Source of the DNA: Bifidobacterium breve
GTDB taxonomy: Bacteria > Cyanobacteriota > Cyanobacteriia > PCC-6307 > Cyanobiaceae
Assembly (NCBI GenBank): GCA_943325005.2
Contig: CALPNT020000002.1
Location: forward strand, 1-53,537
Direction: 5' to 3'
DNA: 53,537 nucleotides
Shown: one piece after another, positions 25,441 through 53,195 of the stretch
Layout of the letters: the number at the start of each line of letters is the position of its first letter
How positions within the stretch are numbered: position 1 is the first letter of the stretch
Notes under the pieces: generated by a model
The model's input: only the letters and a program-made list of their open reading frames with translations
What the model was told of the DNA's origin: nothing
Databases searched by the model: none
Translations under genes and position numbers: made by a program

Positions 25441-25521
25441 GTCTCCTCGCCAGGCTGGTTCACCGTCTGGCAAACTTCTGTCGCGCAGGTCCGGCTTGTT
25501 CCGGGCCCATCCTCCGGCTAG

Positions 25522-25848
<327 letters not shown>

Positions 25849-45594: not shown

Positions 45595-47232
45595 TCATGA
45601 GTCCTCAGGCGCCCATTTAGGGCGCTTTTTGCTGGTCTGCTGCGGCGACGGGGCCACCGGCAAGGCTTCGATCAGGGCCGGGCAGGCCCCCAGCAGCTCA
45701 AGGCTTTGGCGGCGTCTGGCTGCGGACAGGGCCGGATCGAGGCTGATGGCGATCCAGGCCGCCAGGGGGTCACGCCGGGCTTGTGCCTGAAGCCAGCCCG
45801 GCTTGGGCCGCTGTTGGTGTAACTGTTGGCGCAACTGGTCGATCAGGGCGCGGCGGCGATTCAGCTGACGGCTGATGGTCTCCGGAGCGCTGCAGAGCTG
45901 CAGGGCCGTCTGCTGCAGGGCCTGCTGCGCAGCGGCTGTGGCCAGCTTCGGCGCATCCGGGCGGGGCCACGGCAGCAGCAGTGCCGTGGTTCCCGCTCCA
46001 ACCCCGGCCAGCACCAGGGTCAGGCCGATCACGGCCAGGGCGCGGGGCTTCCTGGCCGGCGAAGGCCCGGGGGCGCGGGGCTGCGGTTGGTTGGCGGCGG
46101 TACCCGGTGGGTCGGCGCCGAGCATCGATAGACTTGTCCAGTTTTTGGATTCAGCTGTCTCAGTTGATCTGGCTGGCTTGGTGGCGGCAGGTGTCTCACT
46201 TGAGACAGCTGAATCCGTTGAGCGGTTTAAGTCAGCTGAGGGGGCTGGCAGCGTTGGGGCGGCGCTGTCAGCACTGGTTGCGGCCCGTTCAGGAGCGTGC
46301 CGATGGCGAGCTGGTTCCAGTCGGCCGATCGCCACGCTCACATCGTCGCCGCTGCCCTCGCGGCTGATTCGATCGAGGCTGGCCGCCAGTTCGGCTCCCC
46401 GGGGAGCCTCGGTCGGGTCGGGCATTCCCGCCAGCCAGCGCGCCAGCAACAGAAAATCCGGGTCGCTGGCGCAGGATTTGCGCAGGCCATCGGTGCTCAA
46501 CAGCAGGGCGAAGGGGGCCGACGGCGCGCCGATCGGCCACAGGCCGCTGCGGCTGGTAAACAGGCTGGCGGCCTCGCTCTGGCAGAGGCTGCAGGTGGCT
46601 TCACCGGCGGCGATCTCCTGCCGTTCTTCGCTCAGCAGGCTGGCCTCGCCGTCGCAGTCGATCCGCACCAGATCCCAGTCGCCCAAGCCGGTCTGGCCCC
46701 ACCAGTGGGGGGTCATCAGCACCAGGCCGAGGGTGCTGCCATACAGCAGCGGCTGGAAAGGTTGGCCGGCAGCGGCACGGCTGCCGGCCGTTGGGCTGCT
46801 GCCGGTTGGTGTGGCAGGTTCGCAAGGTGCCGCCGCCGGGCCTGCGGGCTCGGCGGCCCCGGGCTGGCTGGCGTTCCAGTCGGCGGCGATCGCCTCCAGC
46901 CAGGCGCTCGTGATCGCCGCCGGCAGGTCCCGGCTCAGCCAGGCGGCCCATTGCGCCCGGCTGCCGTTGTCGTCCGGGCTGCCCAGGCGGCGCTGGGACA
47001 CCGCCGTCAGCACCAGGGCCAGCGCCCGCTCGCAGGCCAGGCGGCTGCCCCGGTCGCTCAGTCGGTAGCGGGAGCCGCCATGGCCATCGGCCACGGCCAT
47101 CACCCACACGGGCAGTCCATCCAGGCTGAGACCGTGGCCGCTGGCCGAGGCGTCCTGGCAGGGCTGGTGGCGGCGCCAATGGGAGGCGCCGCGGCGGCTG
47201 CAGTGGATCGGCTCCGCCCAGCTGTTCACCAC
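45595..47232 (-). CDS. PP2C-type protein phosphatase with C-terminal membrane helix
   Basis: A 545-residue PPM-family Ser/Thr phosphatase. Metal-binding residues are visible in HQPCQDASASG (Asp27), VMAVADGHGGS (Asp49), LLLSTDGLRKS and EGSGDDVSVAIG. The catalytic domain spans about residues 10-310. A Ser/Thr/Ala-rich linker of about 85 residues follows, then a membrane helix near 400-423 (ALAVIGLTLVLAGVGAGTTALLLPWP) and a 120-residue helical C-terminal part on the far side of the membrane. Start is GTG at 47232. It overlaps the vWA gene by 7 nt, so the two are translationally coupled. Confidence 0.9.
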   Translation of the reverse strand: MVNSWAEPIHCSRRGASHWRRHQPCQDASASGHGLSLDGLPVWVMAVADGHGGSRYRLSDRGSRLACERALALVLTAVSQRRLGSPDDNGSRAQWAAWLSRDLPAAITSAWLEAIAADWNASQPGAAEPAGPAAAPCEPATPTGSSPTAGSRAAAGQPFQPLLYGSTLGLVLMTPHWWGQTGLGDWDLVRIDCDGEASLLSEERQEIAAGEATCSLCQSEAASLFTSRSGLWPIGAPSAPFALLLSTDGLRKSCASDPDFLLLARWLAGMPDPTEAPRGAELAASLDRISREGSGDDVSVAIGRLEPARHRHAPERAATSADSAAPTLPAPSADLNRSTDSAVSSETPAATKPARSTETAESKNWTSLSMLGADPPGTAANQPQPRAPGPSPARKPRALAVIGLTLVLAGVGAGTTALLLPWPRPDAPKLATAAAQQALQQTALQLCSAPETISRQLNRRRALIDQLRQQLHQQRPKPGWLQAQARRDPLAAWIAISLDPALSAARRRQSLELLGACPALIEALPVAPSPQQTSKKRPKWAPEDS

Positions 47233-48014
47233 ACCAACGGCCCAACGTCGTCGCTGGGATCAAGCACGGTGGGCGGCAGGTCCGGCAGGGGAATGTTGCT
47301 GCCATCAGCGGCCTGAACCGTGCGGCTCGCCGGCATGGAGGCGGCGTTCACCACCGCGGTGGAGGCCCATTGGATGTACTGGGCCAGGGAGGTGGCATTG
47401 CTGGCCTGCAGCGGTCGTCGCGGTGAGCGGCTGCTGGGGGCGGAGCGGGGTGCCTGGCCGCTGGCTCCAGGAATCTCGCCAGCCGGCAGCGGCGTGGCCT
47501 GTGGCTCGTTGCCGATGAACTGCTGCAGCACCTCCAGATCGGCATCGTGGCCCATGGCAATCGCCAGCCGCACCGCTTTCTGAGCCCAGGGACAGCGCAT
47601 CAGGGTCGTCAGGCCGGCTTGGAAATCATCGGTGGGCTGGCCATCGGAGATCAGTACCAACACCGGTGGCAGGGCGCGCTCCTCCATTGGCGGTGTGCTC
47701 AGTTGGGCGGCCACCAGCTCCAGGGCTTCGCCCATCGCCGTGATGCCCCCTGCCTGTAGGTCCTGCCACTGCAGCTGGTCCACCGGTGTCGGGGTGGCGA
47801 CGTGCCAGAGGGCCCGATCGGCGAAGCTCACCGCCCGTACCAGCACCCGGGCTTCCGGGTTGTCGCGGGCCACGGCCGCCATGCCCGGCAGCGATTGGCG
47901 GATCGCCTGGTTGAGTGCCTGCATCTTGCCCTGGGCAGCCATCGAGCCGGAGCAGTCGCAGAGGTAGAGGAAATGCAGGGGGCGGTTGGCCAGCCGGACG
48001 TTGGGAAAGGGCAT
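47226..48014 (-). CDS. TerY-like von Willebrand factor A domain protein
   Basis: A 262-residue cytoplasmic vWA protein resembling TerY. The metal-ion-dependent adhesion site (MIDAS) is complete: DCSGSM (Asp20, Ser22, Ser24), Thr92 in QAGGITAMGEALELV, and Asp124 in VLVLISDGQPTDDFQ. The vWA fold takes residues 8-180. The rest is a Pro/Ser-rich tail with NATSLAQYIQWASTAVV near the end. The ATG at 48014 starts just before the first strand. TerY-type proteins, paired with a PP2C phosphatase and a kinase, make the TerY-P triad; here the phosphatase gene overlaps it and the kinase gene lies upstream. Confidence 0.88.
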   Translation of the reverse strand: MPFPNVRLANRPLHFLYLCDCSGSMAAQGKMQALNQAIRQSLPGMAAVARDNPEARVLVRAVSFADRALWHVATPTPVDQLQWQDLQAGGITAMGEALELVAAQLSTPPMEERALPPVLVLISDGQPTDDFQAGLTTLMRCPWAQKAVRLAIAMGHDADLEVLQQFIGNEPQATPLPAGEIPGASGQAPRSAPSSRSPRRPLQASNATSLAQYIQWASTAVVNAASMPASRTVQAADGSNIPLPDLPPTVLDPSDDVGPLVW

Positions 48015-48493
48015 CAGCAGGAGAGAACTGGGGCGAAAGGCTGGGGCTGGAGGGGCGATCGCGACTCGGTGGCTTCGAGAGCGGCAGTTAGTACCACGCG
48101 AGCCCAAGTCTGGATCAAGGATGGTCCGGCATCAGGGAGCCGCGGCGGCACTGGCTGCTCCAGCTGGCTCGATGGCCAGCCCTTGGAGATTTTGATGACC
48201 CAGCGAGATCCGCGCAGCCGGCAGGTCTGCCGCTTCGCTCCGCCAGATCGTCAGGCCCCGTGGAGGCAGAGCGCTGAGCGGGGAACAGGACAGAGCTTCC
48301 TGGGTCAATCTCAGGCCTGTGCTTTGCCCTAATCGGGCTGTGCTGAACAAGCTCCGCGACGCACAAGTGAACATCGCGAAGCTTGAGGGGTCATCCCGTT
48401 AACAAAAGCTTGAGGCGAAAGGCTCGCGAAGACTCGGCGCCATCGGCGGTGCGGGTCGGAGCCCTGGGGAGCGAGCCGTGAGCGGCTTTGAGC
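48015..48493. other. 479-nt spacer between kinase and vWA genes
   Basis: No gene is apparent. The vWA/PP2C promoter must be here unless transcription reads through from the kinase gene. The 9-mer AGCTTGAGG is repeated at 48380-48388 and 48407-48415, 27 nt apart. A GTGGCTTCGAGAGCGGC-type stretch near 48070 has no clear dyad. Region 48290-48490 has a slightly different composition from the genes around it. Confidence 0.45.
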
Positions 48494-49882
48494 TCAGCGG
48501 TTTGCAGCGCGGCCGTTTGTATCGAGACCGTTTGCATCGAGGTCGTGGCTGGTCACCCGTTCGATCACGCCAGCGCGGCTGTTGACCCGCCGCAGGGCCG
48601 CGAGGCTGCAGCTCCTGCTGGGCTCCACCACCATCCGGCGGCCATGCTCCAGCTCCACCTCCCAGGGCGAGTCCGTGAGGTTGCACAACCCCAGCAGGCT
48701 GGGATCACTGGGATGGGCCGTGATCCGGGCCAGGGGCTGGTCCAGGGCCACCGGCAGCAGGCGGTCGAGATGGTGAGCCTGAATCTCGTTGCCAGCAGCG
48801 ATCGCCACCAGGCCCCGGGGCAGCCGCAGCCAGGGGCCCTGGGGCAGTGGATTGCCACAGCTCCAGCAGCCGGCGGCCGTACTGCCGGCCGCCGGAAAGG
48901 CCTCCTGGCCGCAGGACGGGCAGAGCAGGCGCCGATCGAGGCTGGCGGCCAGCGCTGCGGTCCACTGGCCGGTGAGGGCACGCCGCTGCGGTTGTTTCAG
49001 GCCTGGACCGAAGGTCTGCAGGAATAGCTGTTGCAGGGGCTCGGGATAGATCGGCCAGGTGATCAGGGCCGCGGCGTGCTCGATCGGATCGGGTCGGTTG
49101 CGCGTGTCGATCGGATCGAAGATGAACACCGGATCTTCGCCGTAGAGGCGGCGCCGGGCCGGTTCATCGAGGCAGCGGATCGCCTGCTCCAGGGCCCCTT
49201 TGAGCGGGTCATGGCGGGTGAGCAGCCGGAAGATCAGCACCGCCAGCGAGAACAGATCGCTGCTGGCTCCGGGCCGGGCCTGGCCCAGCAGGATTTCCGG
49301 CGCCATGAAGCCCGGTGTGCCCAGCACGCTGCCCGGATCGCGGCCATCCACCGCCACGTTGTCGTTGTCGCAGATCAGGATGCGACCGCTGCCGGGTTCC
49401 AGGAACAGGTTCCCCAGCGAGATGTCCTTGTAACAGAGGCCGCGCAGGTGCAGGGCGTGGAAGGCGTCGGCCAGAAAGAAGGCGGCCCGCAGCACGTTCT
49501 GCAGGCTGATCTCCATCTGGCCACCGGCATGGGCGTTAGCACCGAGGAAGGAGGGTGGTCGCAGGGGCATCAGGTAGCCGAAGCTCGGCTCCCGCAGGCG
49601 GATCTGCTCGCGACTGGCGGCATGGGTTCCCACCAGGGCAATCGGCCAGAGGAAGGCGTTGTTGGGGCTGGAGGCCTGGATGCTCTCCTCGAGGCGCCGC
49701 CGCAGATTCGGATCGCGGGCGATGCAGGCCGGCCAGTACCACTTCAGGGCCAGGCGCTCGCCGCCCAGTTCCACCGCATACACCTGGCCCTGACTGCCAC
49801 CCCCGACGCCCTCAAGAATGCGGAGCTCCCGGGAGAGCCCCTCGAGCTGGAGCACGGCGCCGATCGGCAGGATCCAGTTCAA
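48494..49882 (-). CDS. Kinase-fold protein with atypical catalytic motifs and zinc ribbon
   Basis: A 462-residue Ser/Thr kinase-like protein. The Gly-rich loop is GVGGGSQGQVYAVELGGERLALKWY, with the ATP-binding Lys47. The catalytic loop is YKDISLGNLFL: Asp153 and Asn158 are kept, but Tyr151 replaces the usual His. The Mg-binding motif is DND (172-174) instead of DFG. APE survives as TPGFMAPEIL. After the kinase domain (to about 310) come a zinc ribbon with Cys321, 324, 339 and 342, and a C-terminal beta-rich region with a low-complexity end. Start is TTG at 49882, or GTG at 49855. It lies 24 nt after the membrane FHA gene. Confidence 0.85.
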   Translation of the reverse strand: MNWILPIGAVLQLEGLSRELRILEGVGGGSQGQVYAVELGGERLALKWYWPACIARDPNLRRRLEESIQASSPNNAFLWPIALVGTHAASREQIRLREPSFGYLMPLRPPSFLGANAHAGGQMEISLQNVLRAAFFLADAFHALHLRGLCYKDISLGNLFLEPGSGRILICDNDNVAVDGRDPGSVLGTPGFMAPEILLGQARPGASSDLFSLAVLIFRLLTRHDPLKGALEQAIRCLDEPARRRLYGEDPVFIFDPIDTRNRPDPIEHAAALITWPIYPEPLQQLFLQTFGPGLKQPQRRALTGQWTAALAASLDRRLLCPSCGQEAFPAAGSTAAGCWSCGNPLPQGPWLRLPRGLVAIAAGNEIQAHHLDRLLPVALDQPLARITAHPSDPSLLGLCNLTDSPWEVELEHGRRMVVEPSRSCSLAALRRVNSRAGVIERVTSHDLDANGLDTNGRAANR

Positions 49883-49906
49883 GGGATGGGGACGCGCCGG
49901 GTCGAA

Positions 49907-50569
49907 TCAGGGCCTTTGACTCTGGCCGATCGCCCGGCGGATGCCGTTACGGTGCGCCAGGGCGGTGAGCCGGTTGCGGAAGCGGTGTCGATGGGCCAGG
50001 CCGTCGTTGGTCACCACCTCCAGCAGGTGCTCCTTGCGGGCACCCAGCAGAATCCAGCCCGCCAGGGCCAGCAGCTCCAGGGGCCAGAACAGCAGCGGCA
50101 GGGGCAGCAGCAGCAGGCCGCCCAGGCAGAGCAGCAGCCACCAGCTGAAGATGTGGGGATAGAGGGCGCGGCTTTCCACCCGCACGGAGCGAATCGCCGC
50201 GGCGCTCAGGCGCTGGTCGCCCACGTCGATGCTGAGGGGATCGGGCCGTGCTCCCTGGGCGGCGCCGCAGCGGAACACCAGCACCGGTCCGCTGCTGCCG
50301 AGGCGGATCTCATCGCCGTCATCGAGGCTGCTGCACTGGCGCAGCCGCACCCCTTCCAGCCAGGTGCCGTTGGCGCTGCCCAGATCACACACCAGCCACT
50401 GGTTACCGGTACGGGAGCGACGCACCTGGGCATGCTGGCGCGACAATCCCGCCGCCTCCGGCAGGCAGAGGCCGTTGTCCGGGGCACGCCCGATGGTCAG
50501 CCCCTTGGTGGGGTCCAGGTTGACCCGCCGCCGCGGATTGTCCCGCAGTTCGAGGCTGGCGCTCTCCAT
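49907..50569 (-). CDS. FHA-domain membrane protein
   Basis: A 220-residue protein with an N-terminal FHA phosphothreonine-binding domain (about 22-100): GLTIGRAPDNGLCLPEAAGLSRQHAQVR, and LVCDLGSANGTWLEGVRL. The key residues Arg28, Ser43-Arg44-Gln45-His46 and Asn67-Gly68 are present. Two adjacent hydrophobic helices (about 142-160 and 162-177) follow, then a basic C-terminal cytoplasmic tail (HRHRFRNRLTALAHRNGIRRA). It should hold FHA and tail on the same face. The start overlaps the stop codon of the small membrane gene upstream by one base (TGATG). Confidence 0.88.
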   Translation of the reverse strand: MESASLELRDNPRRRVNLDPTKGLTIGRAPDNGLCLPEAAGLSRQHAQVRRSRTGNQWLVCDLGSANGTWLEGVRLRQCSSLDDGDEIRLGSSGPVLVFRCGAAQGARPDPLSIDVGDQRLSAAAIRSVRVESRALYPHIFSWWLLLCLGGLLLLPLPLLFWPLELLALAGWILLGARKEHLLEVVTNDGLAHRHRFRNRLTALAHRNGIRRAIGQSQRP

Positions 50570-50904
50570 CAGCCCCCATCCCCACGACCACCGCCACTAC
50601 GGCGCGGCAACCCGTGGCGCGGCAATCCGTGGCGCGGCAATCCGTGGCACTGCCACCAGTGATGCCAGTCGGCCGCAATCTCGGCGCGCAGGCCCGGTTC
50701 CCCCTCCCGCCAGGGTCTCACCCGGCCGGGGAACAGCAGGGCGATGGTCGCCAGCAGCAGGCCGATTAGCAGCAGCAGCAGCAGCACCCAGCCCGGTAGG
50801 GCCCCGACCCAGGTGGCCGCAAAGCTGGCCCGGATCGCGTAGACGGCCACCGTCAGGGCAATCCAGATGCGGAAAGGGGCCCAGGGATCCCGGCGACGCT
50901 CCAC
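50569..50904 (-). CDS. Small two-helix membrane protein with HGLPR repeats
   Basis: A 111-residue protein with two hydrophobic segments (IWIALTVAVYAIRASFAATWVG and GWVLLLLLLIGLLLATIALLF). The last third is cytoplasmic and basic, with WHHWWQC and three tandem HGLPR units, then a Gly/Arg-rich end. I do not recognise a family. The start is GTG at 50904, only 17 nt from the oppositely directed penicillin-binding protein gene. It is translationally coupled to the FHA gene that follows. Confidence 0.75.
   Translation of the reverse strand: MERRRDPWAPFRIWIALTVAVYAIRASFAATWVGALPGWVLLLLLLIGLLLATIALLFPGRVRPWREGEPGLRAEIAADWHHWWQCHGLPRHGLPRHGLPRRSGGGRGDGG
50601..50645. repeat. Three tandem 15-bp repeats
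   Basis: Units GGCGCGGCAACCCGT, GGCGCGGCAATCCGT and GGCGCGGCAATCCGT follow each other without gaps, the last two identical. On the minus strand they encode the HGLPR repeats of the small membrane protein. The near-identity suggests recent expansion or slippage. Confidence 0.85.
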
Positions 50905-50921
50905 CCAGGGGCTCGTGATCG

Positions 50922-53195
50922 ATGCAGCTAGCGTATCGGCTCCTCCAGATCCCAGGGATGCCCGAGCCGGTCGCGCCCGGTGCCGCCTGGTCCGCCCTTG
51001 GGCGCGCCTTGCTCACCGGCCCTGTGGCCAGAAGGCCGGAGGCGTTGGCCACAGCCCTGCGGATCCTGCGCCAGCGCCGCGCCTGGTTGGAGCTCTGGCA
51101 GGGCGACGTGTGCCGCCAGCGCCTGCCGCTGGGGGATGGGCGCTATCGCATCGGCCGGGATCCCCAGCTGGAGCTGCCGGTCGATGGCAGCGGCATCAGC
51201 CGGGTGCATGGAATCGTGGAGAAGCAGCGGCCCCAGGCACGGGACTATCGCCTCGAGGACTTCGGCTCCGCCAATGGGATTTTCTGGCAGGACCGACGCA
51301 TCCGCAGCATCGATCTGCGCCATGGCGATCAGCTGCAACTCGGCTCACCCTTGCGGGCCGAAGCTCCCACCCTGCGCTACTGCCAGCCGCGCAGCCCACT
51401 GGAGCAGGCCATCCACTGGGGCGGTGTGGGCCTGCTGGGGGGCTCGGCGATCGCTCTCTCGCTGCTGTTGGCGGCCACCACGATCGCTGGTGGTTCCAGC
51501 ATCCGCGCCATCGGGGGTCCGGTGCGCATCGTCGCCGACAACGGCCGCCAGATCGATGCGGCCGAGGGGGCGCCGGTGGCCCTGCCATCCCTGGACGCCT
51601 ACCCCTTGCAGTTGCGGCAGGCCTTGATGGCGTCGGAGGAGGCGCGCTTTGGCTGGAACAGCGGCATCGATCTGTTCGGCACCCTGCGATCAGCCCTGCG
51701 CGGCACCGGTGGCGGCAGTGGTCTCACCCAGCAGGTGGCCCGGATGTACTACCCCGCCGTCGGCAACGACGTGAGTGTGGCTCGCAAGCTGCGGGAGCTG
51801 GGGGTGGCCTGGCAGCTGGAGGCGGGCTTCAGCAAGAACCGCATCCTCAAGATGTATCTCGATCGGGCTTATCTCGGATTGGGGACGGAGGGTTTCGAGC
51901 AGGCGGCCCAGCTGTATTTCCGTAAGTCAGCCCGCAAGCTCGATGTCTCGGAAGCGGCTTTTCTGGTCGGTCTGTTGCCCAATCCCAATGGCTACAGCCC
52001 CTGCAACAGCAAGGATCCAACGGCCGGACGGGAGCGCCGCAATCTGGTGTTACGGCTGATGCAGCAGGAGGGCTACCTCTCCGATCAGCAGCTGATCGAT
52101 GCCCTGCGCCGCCCGCTGAACATCGACCCCTCCGCCTGCCGGGAGTCGACGCTGATCAGTTATCCCTACTTCAGCGACTACGTGGTCGGTGAGCTGGAGG
52201 GGCGGCGCTTCGGCCTCAACCTCAGGGACGAGCAGCTGGGCGGCAACTACCAGGTGGTGAGCACGATTGATCCCCGCATGCAGGCGATTGCCCAGAAGCA
52301 GCTGGGCCGCTTCCTGCAGGGACCGGCCGCCGGCGTGGGGCTCACCCAGGGAGCCCTGATCTCGCTGGATGTGGCCACCGGCGAAATCCTGGCCTATGTG
52401 GGCGGTGGCGACTATGCCCGCTCCAGCTTTGATCGGGTGCAGGCTCTGCGGCAGCCAGGTTCCACCTTCAAGCTGTTCACCTATCTGGCGGCGCTCACGG
52501 CCGATCTCGATCTCAATGCCACCGTCTCCTGTGCGCCTCTGGGTTATGTGGCCGGCTGCCAGCACGGACCGGTGGGCCCGACTGGAACGATCAGCTACGC
52601 CGATGGTTTTGCCTTTTCCGAGAATGTGGTAGCCCTGCGGCTGGCTGAACGGGTGGGGCTGAACCGGGTGATCGAACAGGCACGGCGGCTGGGCATCAGC
52701 ACCCCCCTCGATTCCACCTACACCATGGTGTTGGGCGGCAAGGAGACCTACCTCTACGAGCTGGCCAGGGCCTATGCCGTGGTGGCCAACGGTGGTGGCT
52801 CGGTGCCGATGCACGGTGTCCGCCGCATCTACGACCTGGGCATCTGTCCTTCGATCGACACGCTGGCCCAGTGCCCGGCCAGCGGGGTCACCACCCCGAT
52901 CGGCGAGCGTTCGCGGCAGCTGTTGGAGCCGGCGGTGGCCGCCGCCATGGACCGGCAACTGCGCCGGGTTGTGAGCGAGGGCACCGGGCGGGCCGCGGCC
53001 GGTGTCGCCGATGCCCGCGGCAAGACCGGCACCACCAACGATGGCGTCGATGTGCTGTTCATCGGCTATTCGCCGGCGATGGGGATCCTCACCGGCATCT
53101 GGATGGGCAACGACGACAACACCCCGGCCGAGGCGGCTTCCGGCGCCCTGGTGGCCGATCTCTGGGGGCGCTACATGCGGGCTGTGGCCAGCTGA
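50922..53195 (+). CDS. Class A penicillin-binding protein with N-terminal FHA domain
   Basis: A 757-residue bifunctional peptidoglycan synthase. An FHA domain lies at about 65-150 (YRIGRDPQLELPVDGSGISRVHGIVEKQ, DFGSANGIF), then a membrane helix (166-190). The glycosyltransferase (GT51) domain has Glu239-Glu240 in MASEEARFGWNSGIDLFG and GGGSGLTQQVARMYY. The transpeptidase has its nucleophile Ser514 (STFK), SEN at 566-568 and KTGTT at 701-705. The expected GT51 pair is Glu-Asp, here Glu-Glu. The FHA would sit in the cytoplasm, so it could read protein phosphorylation by the neighbouring kinase. Start ATG at 50922; an ATG at 50958 is an alternative. Confidence 0.93.
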   Translation: MQLAYRLLQIPGMPEPVAPGAAWSALGRALLTGPVARRPEALATALRILRQRRAWLELWQGDVCRQRLPLGDGRYRIGRDPQLELPVDGSGISRVHGIVEKQRPQARDYRLEDFGSANGIFWQDRRIRSIDLRHGDQLQLGSPLRAEAPTLRYCQPRSPLEQAIHWGGVGLLGGSAIALSLLLAATTIAGGSSIRAIGGPVRIVADNGRQIDAAEGAPVALPSLDAYPLQLRQALMASEEARFGWNSGIDLFGTLRSALRGTGGGSGLTQQVARMYYPAVGNDVSVARKLRELGVAWQLEAGFSKNRILKMYLDRAYLGLGTEGFEQAAQLYFRKSARKLDVSEAAFLVGLLPNPNGYSPCNSKDPTAGRERRNLVLRLMQQEGYLSDQQLIDALRRPLNIDPSACRESTLISYPYFSDYVVGELEGRRFGLNLRDEQLGGNYQVVSTIDPRMQAIAQKQLGRFLQGPAAGVGLTQGALISLDVATGEILAYVGGGDYARSSFDRVQALRQPGSTFKLFTYLAALTADLDLNATVSCAPLGYVAGCQHGPVGPTGTISYADGFAFSENVVALRLAERVGLNRVIEQARRLGISTPLDSTYTMVLGGKETYLYELARAYAVVANGGGSVPMHGVRRIYDLGICPSIDTLAQCPASGVTTPIGERSRQLLEPAVAAAMDRQLRRVVSEGTGRAAAGVADARGKTGTTNDGVDVLFIGYSPAMGILTGIWMGNDDNTPAEAASGALVADLWGRYMRAVAS

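Follow-up and report, generated by a model that had tools for sequence, protein, structure and literature searches.

As set out in PMC11090510, which follows Anantharaman et al. 2012, TerY-P triads are defined by a TerY-like vWA protein, a PP2C phosphatase and a Ser/Thr kinase with a C-terminal zinc ribbon fusion. They usually occur in the context of ter genes, DNA-processing genes or restriction genes, although this context is not strictly defining. Though the triads are widespread, our literature search found no substrate or effector named for them. In mycobacteria, the PknB/FhaA/PstP system controls peptidoglycan synthesis with a Ser/Thr kinase, a phosphatase and FHA proteins, and phosphorylated CwlM binds FhaA through T382 (PMC6180346). 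In Escherichia coli, a kinase, a PP2C and a vWA gene share one neighbourhood (YegI-PphC-YegL). Class A PBPs with an FHA domain (FHA-PBPs), for which we found no description in the literature searched, are present across cyanobacteria without a triad.

Here, we analysed a window of 53,537 nucleotides (the whole stretch of DNA under study) from a freshwater picocyanobacterium. Its kinase-vWA-PP2C set resembles TerY-P triads in the three components, their catalytic motifs and a gene order as on the Prevotella plasmid pE2-28, but differs in being coupled to an FHA-class A PBP, an FHA membrane protein and a small transmembrane (TM) protein. Likewise, the cluster shares a Ser/Thr kinase, a phosphatase, FHA proteins and, as we infer, a role in wall synthesis with the mycobacterial system. 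However, PknB is a membrane-bound PASTA kinase whereas the kinase found here is soluble and carries a zinc ribbon, and FhaA is a separate adaptor whereas an FHA domain of the cluster is fused to the synthase. Close kinship with the E. coli triad was rejected, since its proteins are only distantly related (16-26 bits to the module profiles) and the C-terminus of YegI is different. The conserved cluster suggests that protein phosphorylation may switch wall synthesis directly at the FHA-PBP. Its likely output, a wall synthase with an intact phosphothreonine pocket, would make an effector of a TerY-P triad directly testable.

Composition of the cluster

The cluster comprises six genes, the families of which were assigned by Pfam (Table 1). 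A preliminary description had placed partly overlapping genes on one strand next to a divergent FHA-PBP; coordinates and Pfam matches confirmed this reading, and all six genes lie where it had put them. In order of transcription, the minus strand encodes the small membrane protein (SMP), the FHA membrane protein, the kinase, the vWA protein and the PP2C, while the PBP gene on the plus strand stands head to head with SMP. The PBP is composed of an N-terminal FHA domain (51144-51344), which is presumably cytoplasmic, followed by a TM segment, the transglycosylase and the transpeptidase. SMP and the FHA gene overlap by 1 base and vWA and PP2C by 7 bases, and 24 bp lie between the FHA gene and the kinase gene. 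The kinase-vWA gap (48015-48493) spans about 479 bp in the window and is similar in the closest relatives, with a median of 3 bp over all loci. For the vWA protein, ATG 48014 is a more probable start than TTG 48107, since sequence conservation sets in at this ATG (M32 of the long reading). SMP has no family match in the Pfam search and is kept beside the FHA gene in relatives with 51-90% identity. A search for a sigma-70 consensus between SMP and PBP gave no match. Elsewhere in the window, an Rfam ATPC RNA motif was found at 25455-25545 on the plus strand.

Table 1 Features of the cluster in window coordinates.
Feature	Position	Strand	Remarks
PP2C phosphatase, C-terminal tail	45595..47232	-	Pfam PP2C_2, E 3e-23
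TerY-like vWA protein	47226..48014	-	Pfam VWA, E 7e-6; longer TTG reading to 48107
vWA C-terminal tail LPDLPPTVLDPSDDVGPLVW	47229..47288	-	candidate phospho-Thr is T280 of the long reading
Ser/Thr kinase, zinc ribbon and beta-rich domain at C-terminus	48494..49882	-	Pfam Pkinase, E 6e-13
Zinc ribbon of kinase (CPSC...CWSC)	48857..48922	-	four invariant Cys
Beta-rich C-terminal domain of kinase	48554..48832	-	nine strands at high pLDDT
FHA membrane protein	49907..50569	-	Pfam FHA, E 2e-16; N-terminal FHA 50297-50497, TM hairpin ~50045-50152
SMP, small membrane protein, 111 aa	50569..50904	-	two predicted TM (hydrophobic) segments
Putative shared divergent promoter region, SMP/PBP	50905..50957	.	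17 or 53 bp long, according to which PBP start is used
Class A PBP	50922..53195	+	Pfam FHA, E 1e-13; Transgly, E 1e-41; Transpeptidase, E 2e-22

Judged by its sequence features, the kinase-vWA-PP2C set is a TerY-P triad with all three defining parts. The identity claimed in the preliminary description thus agrees with the published definition, with invariant active-site and zinc residues and with homologues that share the same neighbours. In all 51 kinases compared, K47, YKD153..N158, D172 and APE are invariant. The zinc ribbon gave no significant Pfam match, yet its presence, likewise noted before, is borne out by four cysteines (321, 324, 339 and 342) that are invariant in 51/51 kinases and recur in 45 sequences across phyla. 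The AF2 model of the kinase (pLDDT 92.7) reaches Z-scores of 21-23 to solved kinases including PknB, and neither a TM segment nor a PASTA domain was found by Pfam or in the model. The PP2C retains its metal motifs QD, DGHG, DG and GxxDD (49/49) and has one TM segment predicted from sequence at approximately residues 401-420. The MIDAS residues of the vWA protein (D-x-S-x-S, T, D) are invariant in 50/50 sequences; the PADLOC TerY model matches it weakly (E 0.009).

Full-length homologues of the kinase, about 40% identical to it, were found in Chloroflexota, Verrucomicrobia, Acidobacteria, Firmicutes, Gammaproteobacteria and other cyanobacteria. Many of these homologues from outside the family adjoin vWA and PP2C genes, and the vWA neighbours in other phyla match the same module vWA profile. 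On plasmid pE2-28, a TerY-C protein is encoded ahead of kinase, vWA and PP2C. No ter, DNA-processing or restriction gene lies within the conserved six-gene cluster. At two loci (L217:8324-9961 and L219:8046-9677), the vWA protein carries an additional N-terminal part that weakly resembles a kinase and may be a pseudokinase.

The beta-rich domain at the C-terminus of the kinase is conserved across phyla with invariant P, G, W and G, and has neither a Pfam match nor a significant sequence match in the PDB. The Foldseek and VIA match lists for the kinase were filled by its kinase domain and not by the beta-rich domain. Its sequence was suggestive of a degenerate FHA domain, but we rejected this assignment at the sequence level, since hhalign against the module FHA profiles was negative and the Pfam and PDB sequence searches gave nothing significant.

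Conservation in Cyanobiaceae

The preliminary description had linked the triad to an FHA-bearing class A PBP and had proposed a search of cyanobacterial genomes for the arrangement. We found it conserved in orientation, spacing and co-occurrence at the kinase loci of the picocyanobacterial family that includes the window genome, here called Cyanobiaceae (relatives named Synechococcus, Cyanobium, Vulcanococcus and Prochlorococcus). Counting full-length orthologues, the module kinase is present in 47 of 251 sampled family genomes. Gene orientation is identical in 50/50 kinase-holding Cyanobiaceae loci, the PBP being divergent wherever it is present. Median gene spacings at these loci are -4, -4, +3 and -7 bp; we read the negative values, which are start-stop overlaps, as translational coupling. 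The start codons of PBP and SMP are a median of 56 bp apart (46 loci).

Among the 251 genomes, 45 hold both the kinase and the module-linked FHA-PBP (type 2), two the kinase only, one the PBP only, and 203 lack both. Both genomes with the kinase alone belong to Prochlorococcus, and the contig of the single PBP-only genome ends just past the FHA gene. Together with the uniform orientation, this co-occurrence rules out chance adjacency. In a second collection, the FHA gene adjoins the kinase in 56 of 58 family loci, the exceptions being Prochlorococcus strains MIT 0701 and AG-412-I05, which keep the triad without the type-2 FHA-PBP. In MIT 0701, a tandem-FHA ABC transporter is encoded about 5 kb from the triad on the opposite strand (L170:855-3209).

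Proposed phosphothreonine reading and circuit

What, then, would a TerY-P triad do at a class A PBP? FHA domains bind phosphothreonine, and some of them prefer pTxxD. The preliminary description had assumed two phosphothreonine readers. Sequence conservation supports this for the PBP, in which G-R, S-R-x-H and N-G of the FHA pocket are invariant (48/48), but not for the stand-alone FHA protein: its AF2 model and Foldseek give FHA matches including EmbR and its binding residues are canonical in the window, but they are not conserved among relatives (of 49 rows, 37 keep Arg, 36 keep Ser and just 19 keep Asn). Since its pocket is invariant whereas that of the neighbouring FHA protein drifts, the PBP is a strong candidate reader; the FHA membrane protein may often be a scaffold. 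The enzymatic residues of the PBP, namely the transglycosylase Glu and the transpeptidase SxxK, SxN and KTG, show full or almost full conservation among 48 sequences, with conservative Glu/Asp changes.

A candidate ligand is found in the C-terminal tail of the vWA protein, which in Cyanobiaceae mostly reads LPDLPPTxxDPxDDVGPLVW. Its Thr is invariant (50/50) and followed by Asp at +3 in 46/50 sequences, and we take it as a phospho-site by way of hypothesis only. Because the tail is acidic, TxxD could arise without function, and MIT 0701 retains the Thr although its type-2 PBP is absent. Across phyla, the tails of the triad vWA proteins close with a motif resembling D-V-W, which might serve in docking (window 47229-47288; L189-L211).

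We propose, with a probability of roughly 0.55, that the TerY-P triad regulates a dedicated FHA-PBP via phosphothreonine docking, and we infer every phosphorylation, binding and regulatory step as follows: (i) the soluble kinase would phosphorylate a Thr on a module component, the best candidates being the TxxD Thr of the vWA tail or the kinase itself; (ii) the PBP would bind this phosphothreonine with its presumably cytoplasmic FHA domain, which would bring the triad to the PBP; (iii) the docked triad would change placement or activity of the PBP; and (iv) the membrane-tethered PP2C would erase the mark, while the FHA membrane protein and the small TM protein would serve as membrane scaffold. 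FHA membrane proteins near the triad of another cyanobacterial family were counted in favour of this mechanism, and the MIT 0701 triad without type-2 PBP as well as FHA-PBPs without triad were counted against it. More tentative, and in our view on the doubtful side, is the narrower version of a closed circuit in which a single kinase, phosphatase and reader would act directly on the bifunctional peptidoglycan synthase, with the FHA domain of the PBP binding the pThr-x-x-Asp tail of the vWA protein; if true, the TerY-P triad would gain a defined effector.

The best evidence for the proposed wiring of the module to the PBP comes from exclusion in two single-contig complete genomes (G049 and G152). 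At the Pfam cut-offs, their only Pkinase, their only two FHA domains and their only PP2C_2 are those of the module. In the stand-alone FHA protein of both genomes (rows L085 and L086), Arg is replaced by Lys and Asn by Asp. The FHA domain of the PBP, by contrast, has the canonical residues and is therefore the only canonical FHA reader. The cluster thus appears to be the whole recognised phosphothreonine system of these genomes, so mutants should be clean. More broadly, presence of FHA domains and of Hanks kinases agrees in 240 of the 251 family genomes, which in part reflects the already known general FHA/kinase correlation (PMC2176072). Gene linkage and kinase/FHA correlation are, however, confounded by shared ancestry and genome reduction.

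Alternative explanations and FHA-PBPs beyond the cluster

The triad might instead have a stress or metal-signalling job of its own, as TerY-P has been hypothesised to be a metal-sensing switch (PMC11090510), and the PBP might merely be co-regulated via the divergent promoter and not phospho-regulated. Retention of the triad without the PBP in MIT 0701 and AG-412-I05 fits this explanation, as does the finding that no FHA-PBP was detected near triads of other phyla. The module profiles found no FHA protein near non-cyanobacterial triads, several of these loci being short, so that this is a weak negative. However, the phosphothreonine pocket of the PBP is invariant, and G049 and G152 contain no other recognised FHA domain or Hanks kinase for the PBP to serve. 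We thus consider an independent job of the triad rather unlikely.

A PBP matching the FHA-TM-transglycosylase stretch of the window was found in 314 of 380 sampled cyanobacterial genomes, the listed matches starting inside the FHA domain. Within the family, this architecture typically occurs in genomes with a different Hanks kinase, and the source genome itself has another Hanks kinase besides that of the module, as well as another FHA-class A PBP (L094, 2287-4578). Following this argumentation, the FHA domain could be a general cyanobacterial partner-recruitment domain for other kinases, with the triad as one input of several. In contrast, the module-linked PBP is found almost only with the module and, in a tree that took in only five type-1 rows, groups as a fully supported clade of its own on a long stem. 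Hence, we judge general recruitment to be quite unlikely. From the 314/380 genomes and the separate clade of the module copy it follows that the fusion of FHA and PBP is old. The pan-cyanobacterial type 1 has the same FHA-TM-transglycosylase-transpeptidase architecture, is about 42% identical to type 2 and is not tied to the triad. As far as these genomes tell, particular to Cyanobiaceae is the linkage of the triad to a second FHA-PBP copy.

A role in anti-phage defence or conflict, with wall growth stopped on infection, is highly improbable. CoCoNuT restriction systems do come with TerY-P modules, and modules like TerY-P can provide defence on their own (PMC11090510). However, the weak PADLOC matches of the kinase are generic and span the kinase fold only, for which we rejected this identity; moreover, the six-gene cluster is stable among related species and contains neither a nuclease nor another killing effector.

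Beyond the proposed regulation of the PBP by the triad, the cluster makes FHA-PBPs noteworthy as an architecture found across the cyanobacteria. In another cyanobacterial family, the neighbourhood of a triad encodes an FHA protein together with an intramembrane protease of the FHA-PrsW type (L216:13177-15693); this neighbourhood suggests that the FHA membrane effector to which a triad connects may differ from case to case.
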